Shown here in pieces: positions 3,809 through 6,845 of a stretch of DNA of 64,000 nt. The position numbers and the translations under genes were made by a program. This stretch comes from Desulfurivibrionaceae bacterium (lineage in GTDB: Bacteria; Desulfobacterota; Desulfobulbia; Desulfobulbales; VMSU01): contig JAQYVV010000009.1 in the NCBI GenBank assembly GCA_030145275.1, forward strand, positions 1 through 64,000, given 5' to 3'. Numbering within the stretch: position 1 is the first letter of the stretch; each line of letters opens with the position of its first letter. Below the pieces are notes generated by a model that was not told where the DNA came from, ran no database searches, and was given only the letters and a program-made list of their open reading frames with translations.

Positions 3809-3885
3809 TGGTACGCCAGGAGGGAGTCGAACCCCCGACATTCTGCTTAGAAGGCAGATGCTCTATCCAGCTGAGCTACTGGCGC
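3809..3885 (-). tRNA. tRNA-Arg (anticodon TCT)
   Basis: The minus strand reads GCGCCAG acceptor arm, D-arm GCTCAGCTGGATAGAGC, anticodon stem TCTGC/GCAGA with loop CTTCTAA (anticodon TCT), variable loop and TTCGACT T-loop within GGGGG/CCCTC. It ends CTGGCGT with an encoded ACCA tail. The fold is complete. The anticodon reads AGA (and AGG by wobble) arginine codons. Confidence 0.95.
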
Positions 3886-4443: not shown

Positions 4444-6780
4444 TTAATCACTTTTTTTCTTTTTAACCTCTTTCCAAACTGGTCCCTTAGCTGAATCCAT
4501 CACCTCAATCCCCTGGCGGACTAACTCATCCCTCACACCATCGGCCTTTTCCCAGTCTCCTACCCCACGAGCTTTCTCTCTTTCGGCTACCAATCGATCG
4601 ATTTCAGGGGCTAATGGGCATTCTTGCAGACGCAAAACTTGGATAATATCATTAATCCTCCCTAAACTTTCAATAATATAATCCTTCTGTTCTCTATCTA
4701 GTTGACCTTTTTCTAATATAGGGTTGGTTTTTTTAACAAAATTAAATAGTGCCGCCATCGCTTTAGAGATGTTGAGATCATCATCCATTGCTGCAAAAAA
4801 GTTATCCTCCATTTCGGAGAGATATAGTGCTACTTTTGGATGCGGGAGTCCAAGGGGTAGACACATGATCTTTCGCGTAAAACCATTCAGCCTTTGAATA
4901 CTTTTTTGAGCGGCCTTAAGTTTTTTGATGGAAAAATGAATAGGCTTTCTATAATGACTGGTCATCAGAAGATATCGAATAGCCTTAGGAGAGTATCCAT
5001 CCTTAACTAGGTCCTTAAAATTTATAATATTATTAAGACCTTTATTCATTTTCTTGCCGTCCACTAACACAAGTTCGTTGTGGATCCAAAATTTGGCAAG
5101 GCGTTTACCGGTCAGGCATTCGGCAATGGCATTTTCATTTTCATGATGTGGGAAAATAAGATTTGTGCCGCTTGTATGAATATCCATGGTTTCGCCTAAA
5201 TAATGCAAGGTCATGGCAGCACATTCTATATGCCAACCAGGCCTGACATTGCCAAATTCAGAAGGGAAGAAAACCCCTTTTTTTAATTCTGCAAGTGTAG
5301 ACCTTTTAAGCAGGGTAAAATCAACAGGACTCTCTTTTTCATAGTCATCAAGATCAACAGTTTTCCCGACCATTATCTTGCTCAGGTCTACCTTCGAAAG
5401 GCTTCCATACCCTGGGTATTTTGAAATATCAAAATAGACAGAGCCATGTTTTTCGTAGGCATATCCCTTTTTAATGAGCTGCCCTGTGATATCAATCATA
5501 GCCTCAACATGTTCAGAGGCTTTTGGATATGCAGTAGCATCAAGAACACCAAGTGATGCCATATCCTTTTTGAATTCATCTATATAATAACCGGTAAACT
5601 CTTCTAAGGGTTGGCTAGCAGCCTCAGCTCCTTGAATTGTATTATCATCAAGGTCGGTAAAATTCATATAATAATGAACATTATAGCCCTTGCAGGTTAG
5701 AAGGCGATTGACAAGATCAGCAAAAACAAAACGGCGACAGTGATCGAGGTTGGCGTACTCATGTGCAGTTGGACCACAGGCATAAAAGGTAACTTTATCT
5801 TTGTTTATAGGAGTAAACACCTCTTTTTTTCGGGAAGCGGTGTTGTAGAAGCGAAGTTTTGGTTTTTTAGGTACTTGCAATTTTTGTTTACTGAAAAGAG
5901 GAGTACTGAGGTATTTTTCACCACCATCTGGGAAAATTACGACCACATAACCTTCTTTAATCTGTTTTGCCCGGGTAAGTGCGGCACAGAGGGCAGCACC
6001 TGAACTCATCCCGGCAAATATTCCCTCACGTGCGGCCAGCTGACGAGTCATTTCAAAGGCATCTTCATCTGGAATATTTATAATCTGATATGGCAATGTT
6101 TTATCAAAAATCCCAGGGCAGTAGGATTCCTTCATATTTTTAAGCCCTTGAATCTTATGACTATAAAAGGGTTCCATTGCGGTCACGCGGACTTCCGGGT
6201 GGTTATCAGCAAAATATCGGCACAACCCCATTACCGTTCCGGTTGTACCCATTGTAGCGACAACATCAGTAACCAGACCTTCTGTTTGTTCCCAAATTTC
6301 CGGCCCCGTGTTGTAATAATGGGCCTGCCAGTTTGCATCATTATTAAATTGGTCGGTTAAATAATAGAGATCGGGGTGTTGCCTGGCCATGGCATAGGCC
6401 TGTTCAATGGCACCATCTGTACTTCTTTTTGCGGGAGTCAGAAGAATTTCAGCACCATAGGCAAGCATAATTTGCCTTCGTTCTATACTTGCAGATTCAG
6501 GCATAACCAGTTGGCAACGATACCCTTTGACAGCACAGACCATCGCAAGACCGATACCAGTATTGCCGCTAGTAGCTTCAAGGACAATCTTATCAGGAGT
6601 GAGTTCACCACTTTTTTCCCCTGCTTCAACCATGGACAGGGCAATTCGTTCTTTTACTGAGCCAGCCGGATTAAACGTCTCCAATTTTGCAAAAATGGAG
6701 ACGTTCTTATATGGATTTAGTCGCTGTACCGGAACAATTGGAGTGTGACCAATTTTATCGAGGATATTATTTCGTTTCAT
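4444..6780 (-). CDS. Fused cysteine synthase / cysteinyl-tRNA synthetase-like protein
   Basis: A single 778-residue reading frame joins two enzymes. Residues 1-300 are a type II PLP cysteine synthase (CysK/CysM): PLP lysine K43 in NPAGSVKER, TSGNTGIGLA (70-79), phosphate loop GTTGTVMG (178-185) and GMSSGAAL (257-264). Residues from about 308 align with cysteinyl-tRNA synthetase: KLRFYNT, CGPT, NFTDLDDNTI, RPGWHIEC and FPHHENENA. The four zinc ligands appear intact (C335, C520, H545/546, E547). The two class I signatures are altered: HIGH is replaced by NLDH (344-347), keeping only the last His, and KMSKS by KMNKG (577-581), keeping both lysines. It may make cysteine from O-acetylserine and sulfide and hand it to the ligase domain. 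Whether the second domain charges tRNA is open. A terminator separates it from dsrP. Confidence 0.85.
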   Translation of the reverse strand: MKRNNILDKIGHTPIVPVQRLNPYKNVSIFAKLETFNPAGSVKERIALSMVEAGEKSGELTPDKIVLEATSGNTGIGLAMVCAVKGYRCQLVMPESASIERRQIMLAYGAEILLTPAKRSTDGAIEQAYAMARQHPDLYYLTDQFNNDANWQAHYYNTGPEIWEQTEGLVTDVVATMGTTGTVMGLCRYFADNHPEVRVTAMEPFYSHKIQGLKNMKESYCPGIFDKTLPYQIINIPDEDAFEMTRQLAAREGIFAGMSSGAALCAALTRAKQIKEGYVVVIFPDGGEKYLSTPLFSKQKLQVPKKPKLRFYNTASRKKEVFTPINKDKVTFYACGPTAHEYANLDHCRRFVFADLVNRLLTCKGYNVHYYMNFTDLDDNTIQGAEAASQPLEEFTGYYIDEFKKDMASLGVLDATAYPKASEHVEAMIDITGQLIKKGYAYEKHGSVYFDISKYPGYGSLSKVDLSKIMVGKTVDLDDYEKESPVDFTLLKRSTLAELKKGVFFPSEFGNVRPGWHIECAAMTLHYLGETMDIHTSGTNLIFPHHENENAIAECLTGKRLAKFWIHNELVLVDGKKMNKGLNNIINFKDLVKDGYSPKAIRYLLMTSHYRKPIHFSIKKLKAAQKSIQRLNGFTRKIMCLPLGLPHPKVALYLSEMEDNFFAAMDDDLNISKAMAALFNFVKKTNPILEKGQLDREQKDYIIESLGRINDIIQVLRLQECPLAPEIDRLVAEREKARGVGDWEKADGVRDELVRQGIEVMDSAKGPVWKEVKKKKSD

Positions 6781-6801: not shown

Positions 6802-6845
6802 AAAAAAAAAAGCAAGCCTTCAATAGAATTGAAGGCTTGCTTTTT
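6802..6845. terminator. Strong bidirectional-type intrinsic terminator after dsrP
   Basis: AAGCAAGCCTTCAAT and its perfect complement pair around a 3-nt loop (AGA). A T tract follows on both strands. It lies 21 bases beyond the dsrP stop and so ends dsrMKJOP transcription before the cysteine synthase fusion gene. Confidence 0.9.

Follow-up and report, generated by a model that had tools for sequence, protein, structure and literature searches.

A CysM-type cysteine synthase fused to a candidate tRNA-Cys-binding pseudo-synthetase in Desulfobacterota

The window analysed here, a stretch of 64,000 nucleotides from a Desulfurivibrionaceae bacterium (GenBank assembly GCA_030145275.1, contig JAQYVV010000009.1), contains a gene in which a cysteine synthase is continued by a domain resembling cysteinyl-tRNA synthetase (CysRS), and this raises the question of what the second domain does. 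A preliminary description, made from the sequence alone, offered two answers: that the protein makes cysteine and charges it directly onto tRNA-Cys, or that the second domain activates cysteine for another purpose, as MshC does for mycothiol. The comparison with relatives of the fused protein favours neither.

The coordinates given in that description (4444-6780) are correct, and the gene lies on the minus strand, which had been left unstated. The frame starts with ATG, encodes 778 amino acids and has no internal stop codon. In Pfam, residues 7-285 match PALP (E 6e-70), residues 322-625 match tRNA-synt_1e (E 6e-94), residues 661-712 match DALR_2 and residues 723-766 match CysS_C. The protein scores above the NCBIfam cut-offs for both cysS (415 bits, cut-off 340) and cysKM (358 bits, cut-off 344), and the reading of a single unbroken frame joining a cysteine synthase to a CysRS domain is thus borne out. 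The CysRS-like part is full length, with catalytic, DALR and anticodon-binding parts at residues 309-770. The model obtained with AlphaFold2 on the family alignment (mean pLDDT 86) is confident for both domains, and their relative placement is not (pTM 0.59, with low confidence at residues 288-307). The closest PDB folds found by Foldseek are CysRS 8qhp and then the tRNA-bound CysRS 1u0b; MshC appears at ranks 13-14 and CysM 2bhs at rank 16. The positions of all features are collected in Table 1.

Table 1. Features of the fused gene and of the region upstream of it, in window coordinates; residues are numbered along the fused protein.
Feature	Position	Strand	Basis
Fused gene, CysM-type cysteine synthase with CysRS-like putative pseudo-synthetase	4444..6780	-	frame, Pfam, NCBIfam, relatives
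Cysteine synthase domain (CysM/fold-type II PLP), residues 1-297	5890..6780	-	PALP; closest PDB sequences CysM
Variable linker, residues 298-308	5857..5889	-	14% mean identity among homologues; pLDDT <50
CysRS-like class I catalytic domain, residues 309-625	4906..5856	-	tRNA-synt_1e; Foldseek CysRS
DALR/helical region, residues 626-720	4621..4905	-	Pfam DALR_2
Anticodon-binding domain, residues 721-770	4471..4620	-	Pfam CysS_C; residue conservation
Predicted G34-reading residues R734, R738, W743, D747 (E. coli R423, R427, W432, D436)	4540..4581	-	contacts in PMC12684709 and alignment
NLDH, eroded HIGH motif, residues 344-347	5740..5751	-	alignment
KMNKG, eroded KMSKS motif, residues 577-581	5038..5052	-	alignment
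K43, PLP lysine of the synthase	6652..6654	-	K in 72/72 readable homologues
C335, Zn ligand (E. coli C28)	5776..5778	-	alignment
C520, Zn ligand (E. coli C209)	5221..5223	-	alignment
H545, Zn ligand (E. coli H234), invariant even where other ligands are lost	5146..5148	-	alignment
E549, Zn ligand (E. coli E238)	5134..5136	-	alignment
Terminator-like hairpin between dsrP and the fusion	6807..6845	-	18 pairs and a T tract

A join of the two genes by an assembly error, a concern raised in the preliminary description, is excluded, as is a chance join, by the occurrence of the same uninterrupted frame in relatives. A scan of genome contigs found it at about 40 independent loci, in Desulfobulbales, Desulfobacterales, Thermodesulfobacterium and Planctomycetes, and among 296 Desulfobacterota genomes it is present in 123, which belong to 84 of the 199 genera. 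This sample was restricted to genomes at least 90% complete, and some of the carriers are single-contig chromosomes. At the level of the order, a tabulated count gives the fusion or a fragment of it in about 130 of 146 genomes, and in the fusion-less genomes of the order the only cysteine synthase kept is the ordinary CysK type. Among 149 sampled Planctomycetes genomes the full fusion was found only in the centre genome of the sample. The CysRS parts of the fused proteins form one clade in a FastTree phylogeny (63 of 63, support 0.999), which indicates one origin of the fusion and an architecture kept over deep divergence. One genus of the order, g116, stands apart in that all five of its sampled members (G150, G163, G172, G251 and G259), three of them 99-100% complete, are devoid of the fusion, through either clean loss or primary absence.

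The N-terminal domain is best explained as a working cysteine synthase of the CysM type. Its best matches among PDB sequences are the CysM proteins of Salmonella and E. coli (2jc3, 2bhs). The K43, TSGNTG and GTTGTVMG elements on which the preliminary description had based a complete active site are present and their catalytic residues are conserved: S71-T74, G178, T179, G181, S259 and D285 are found in all homologues, and the active site is intact wherever it can be read among 73 fused proteins. CysM as known is a stand-alone enzyme and here it is fused, with all catalytic residues common to both. The substrate loop is GLKNM in the window protein, as compared with GIRRW in E. coli CysM, and in view of this difference sulfide as the sulfur donor and O-acetylserine or O-phosphoserine as the acyl substrate are tentative assignments.

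The CysRS-like domain presents a different picture at its ATP site. HIGH had been read as NLDH and KMSKS as KMNKG, and both readings are right; an alignment of 73 fused proteins (63 in a first set) with 48 true CysRSs identifies them as the window genome's instance of decaying motifs. The second KMSKS lysine (K269) is kept in 48 of 48 CysRSs and in 2 of 73 fused proteins (1 of 63 in the first set). The window copy, which retains H347, K577 and K580, is one of the two, and its close relatives are without this lysine. In the first set, the first HIGH histidine is kept in 25 proteins, the second in 15 and both in none. Among sites that are near-invariant in the 48 CysRSs, those of HIGH and KMSKS are the most relaxed in the fused family (P 2e-5), with a mean entropy of 2.15 bits against 0.54 overall. 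A comparison of homologues, which the preliminary description had called for, finds the fusion conserved and the NLDH/KMNKG pair not: relatives at 68-72% identity have NLAH/KMSRD or NLGH/KMDRQ, with K580 lost, and more remote replacements such as EADA/VRRDG and DLVQ/PSSDT occur in other members. Since both motifs drift even at 68-72% identity, the possibility that NLDH/KMNKG forms an alternative, conserved active site was rejected. The best explanation of this pattern is that ATP-dependent activation of cysteine has been lost from the domain, with weak adenylation by the window copy formally possible in view of H347, K577 and K580.

The fused clade nests with CysRSs of the HIGN type (support 1.0, FastTree), and the change of the second histidine was therefore probably inherited from a functional CysRS and is by itself uninformative on activity. 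As HIGN-type CysRSs with KMSKS form the sister group, the loss of this histidine was rejected as proof of inactivity, and the argument rests on KMSKS and on the drift of the motifs. Genome G121 (98% complete) has a HIGN-type enzyme, L114, as the only CysRS found, so that the HIGN variant is presumably active. The earliest branches of the fused clade have HLGL or HLGV together with KMSRS, and the decay of the motifs thus looks stepwise. Stand-alone HIGN-type CysRSs with KMSKS-like motifs were seen at loci L114, L115, L092 and L144-L146, in Desulfobacterota and Planctomycetes. Another paralogue of the HIGN type, with HLGN or HIGN and KMAKS, is found at L138, L139 and L140 (genomes G020, G058 and G094); it carries a C-terminal extension of about 230-260 amino acids that by eye resembles a family 2 glycosyltransferase, and the three genomes contain canonical and CysM-fused CysRSs as well.

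The search for a second, canonical cysS suggested in the preliminary description succeeded. The window genome, which is 84% complete, has a separate cysS with HIGH and KMSKS (C62:320013-321458, 569 bits), so charging can do without the fusion, and the idea that it is the only CysRS of this genome was rejected. The same genome has a cysK adjoining cysE (C30). Nearly all sampled genomes of the phylum have a CysRS of the canonical or HIGN type in addition to the fusion, with exceptions possible in fragmented or incomplete ones.

In the window, dsrP lies upstream of the fused gene, with a strong terminator-like hairpin in between that ends 27 nt before the ATG of the fusion; no clear promoter was seen between hairpin and ATG. 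The order of dsrP, terminator and fusion described previously is therefore present, and the link to dsr is lineage-specific and absent in the Desulfocapsa and Desulfobacterales relatives. The neighbours are dsrMKJOP in the core Desulfobulbales, dciA in relatives of Desulfocapsa, and an HD/OB-fold gene with tmk in Desulfobacterales, where the genes lie near one another or overlap (-1 and 14 nt between them at two loci). Since conservation of the neighbourhood stops at the level of clades, the association with dsr is one of position and has no bearing on function; a functional tie to dsr was rejected on this ground and because the fusion is more than 100 nt from dsrP in most dsr-linked loci. No T-box or other Rfam leader was found near the fused gene, and none of 23 loci has a tRNA-Cys gene beside the fusion. 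A tRNA-Arg(TCT) gene (window 3809-3885, minus strand) lies downstream of the fusion, past an HU gene, and in several relatives it is about 80-110 nt past the stop codon of the fusion; its downstream position at L006-L008, L010, L012, L013, L016-L018, L026 and L045 amounts to long-kept synteny. In eight Desulfobacterales loci (L027:2553-3566 and a cluster in L028, L031, L032, L035-L037 and L039) a protein of about 330 amino acids with no Pfam match directly follows the fusion.

The cysteine-binding zinc site of CysRS is largely preserved. All four ligands are kept in the window protein, as had been described, and in the first set of 63 the individual ligands are retained in 61 (C28), 59 (C209), 63 (H234) and 53 (E238) proteins; the pocket residues T68, D69, W205 and H224 are each present in at least 59. 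The complete set CCHE occurs in 51 of 73 fused proteins. In a clade of ten members (L111, L112 and L147-L154) the Zn ligands and the greater part of the pocket are gone, with sites of the TTHE, IIHL, IVHL, MMHL, TSHV and TVHV types. These proteins have no recognisable ATP motifs, retain on average 48% of the sites that are invariant in canonical CysRSs, and keep the fusion and an intact synthase. At L112 and L147-L149 the catalytic part of the pseudo-CysRS is at about 32-35% identity and the synthase at about 60%, and the two are still fused.

The conserved part of the CysRS-like half is the anticodon-binding domain, which the preliminary description had not considered. In the complex of E. 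coli CysRS with tRNA-Cys, R427, D436 and W432 read G34 and R423 takes part in a water network (PMC12684709). Of the 73 fused proteins, 71 retain R423, R427 and D436 together and the remaining two have R427K; at position 432 there is invariably an aromatic residue (W, F or Y; W or F in true CysRSs). In the Zn-less clade the three literature residues are kept in ten of ten members (P 0.025), as are the five obtained by adding R439 and D451 (P 0.002); these P values are of moderate size, the choice of sites was made with knowledge of the literature and the sequences are related rather than independent. A426, L442 and G455 are likewise conserved, and the conserved residues could be kept partly for folding. 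The analysis of retained tRNA contacts covered those with the anticodon. The alignment nevertheless argues strongly that the CysRS-like domain binds tRNA-Cys through its GCA anticodon.

On this basis we propose, at what we consider about an even chance, that the fusion is a CysM-type synthase attached to a tRNA-Cys-binding pseudo-synthetase, which would tune the synthase to the charging of tRNA-Cys. The features of a HisZ-like regulator that are seen in the sequence are the paralogy to CysRS, the loss of motifs and the physical link to a synthase; allosteric control of the synthase, and its sign, are hypothetical. The pseudo-synthetase would recognise tRNA-Cys by the GCA anticodon, without ATP activation of cysteine, and binding of tRNA-Cys would make the synthase joined to it more or less active. 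As EF-Tu sequesters charged tRNA, uncharged tRNA-Cys would be the simplest ligand, so that a shortage of Cys-tRNA in translation would be answered by cysteine production. The Zn/cysteine pocket of most members, including that of the window, might in addition sense cysteine, either free or at the aminoacyl end of Cys-tRNA. The broader idea that the charging state of tRNA-Cys switches a cysteine synthase within one polypeptide, as a protein counterpart of the T-box riboswitch and in much of Desulfobacterota, is more tentative and falls somewhat short of even.

The strongest rival, in our view rather unlikely, is a pure cysteine sensor, in which free cysteine bound in the Zn pocket exerts feedback inhibition on the synthase and tRNA has no role. 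Free cysteine rather than tRNA could indeed be the main ligand, given the complete CCHE set of most members, the invariant H234 and the well-kept pocket residues, and HisZ, which mediates inhibition by histidine, provides a precedent (PMC9437257). A sensor of this kind would have no need of a domain reading G34, and the clade of ten kept the fusion together with every anticodon residue despite losing the Zn site and pocket; CysRS*, by comparison, reportedly lost its anticodon domain where anticodon reading was unneeded (PMC9437257). The loss of the ATP site, with anticodon reading kept and the cysteine pocket mostly kept, would also suit a precharged tRNA, and the protein might be a transferase using ready-made Cys-tRNA-Cys, as the class I-derived cyclodipeptide synthases (CDPSs) use aminoacyl-tRNA without ATP (PMC2922099), or the domain might localise the synthase beside tRNA-Cys, in either case with no regulation. 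We regard this as quite unlikely: the neighbourhood differs among clades, no conserved acceptor substrate or biosynthetic neighbour was found in it, and the Zn-less clade could not hold a cysteinyl group in the same way.

The two options of the preliminary description are disfavoured more clearly. That one enzyme makes cysteine and charges tRNA-Cys directly would agree with the complete CysRS fold, with the score above the NCBIfam cysS cut-off, with the residues H347, K577 and K580 of the window copy, and with the descent of its second-histidine change from an apparently active HIGN-type lineage; the canonical cysS found in the window genome and in nearly all others sampled, the loss of K269 in all except two fused proteins and of one or both histidines in every member of the first set, and the fate of K580 and of the motifs in relatives make it very unlikely. 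Adenylation of cysteine for ligation to an acceptor other than tRNA, after the manner of the mycothiol ligase MshC, fails because it needs the same adenylation machinery, and we consider it more improbable still. MshC is a CysRS paralogue working outside translation, has a similar catalytic fold, as reflected in the Foldseek matches, and activates cysteine with ATP, for which the motifs are gone here. With the MshC model TIGR03447 the fused protein scores 221.7 bits (cut-off 485.1), no mycothiol genes were seen in the neighbourhoods of the fusion, and in contrast to MshC, which is not known to have an anticodon domain, the fusion has kept its CysS_C domain. The least probable reading, hardly more than conceivable, is a persulfide synthase activity of the CysRS domain, which would suit the sulfidic habitat of a host that lives with sulfide. 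CysRS has been reported to act as a PLP-dependent persulfide synthase (CPERS), reportedly with a need for the lysines of KIIK and KMSK (PMC10655014); in the first set of fused proteins K73 is kept in 23 of 63, position 76 is variable and K269 is all but gone.

The proposed tuning of the synthase by a tRNA-Cys-binding pseudo-synthetase has its nearest parallel in HisZ, a HisRS paralogue that lacks adenylation activity and regulates the synthesis of histidine, where likewise a dead synthetase paralogue is coupled to an enzyme making the same amino acid (PMC9437257). HisZ is of class II and forms a separate subunit of the ATP phosphoribosyltransferase HisG, which catalyses the first step, with histidine as the effector, whereas the fusion is of class I, forms one chain with the enzyme of the last step and appears to have retained anticodon recognition. 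GCN2, in which uncharged tRNA acts on a HisRS-related domain to activate the protein, is similar in having a pseudo-synthetase domain joined to an enzyme and proposed to read tRNA (PMC4335047), but it is a eukaryotic kinase with a domain of class II and without specificity for a single tRNA, and the fusion keeps the GCA-anticodon residues.

With canonical and HIGN-type bacterial CysRSs the fusion has in common the sequence, the fold, the anticodon domain and, in most members, the Zn site; it differs in the loss of HIGH and of the KMSKS lysine, in being joined to a synthase and in occurring beside a canonical cysS. A second CysRS of the same phylum, CysRS* of Desulfobacterales, is active, is without an anticodon domain and charges SelC* (PMC9437257), and the fusion differs from it by having that domain. 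A second CysRS at L142 (G026:C163), with HLGH and KMSKS and without an anticodon domain, resembles the CysRS* of the SelC* system. A review of synthetase duplications gives CysRS* and MshC as the only CysRS paralogues (PMC9437257), and a search of the open literature, with subscription journals mostly outside it, returned no description of a CysK/CysM-CysRS fusion. As the window protein lies above the NCBI cysS cut-off, automatic annotation can name it cysteine--tRNA ligase despite the decayed motifs.

The family offers a natural series in the making of a pseudo-synthetase, in which the ATP site was lost first and the Zn pocket later, in one clade, with anticodon reading apparently kept. For the principle there are precedents in HisZ and GCN2; here it would concern cysteine and a single chain. 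If the proposal is true, the fusion would add a cysteine member to the few synthetase-derived proteins that regulate amino-acid synthesis, and would couple tRNA-Cys directly, at the protein level, to cysteine production in sulfate-breathing, sulfide-flooded organisms.
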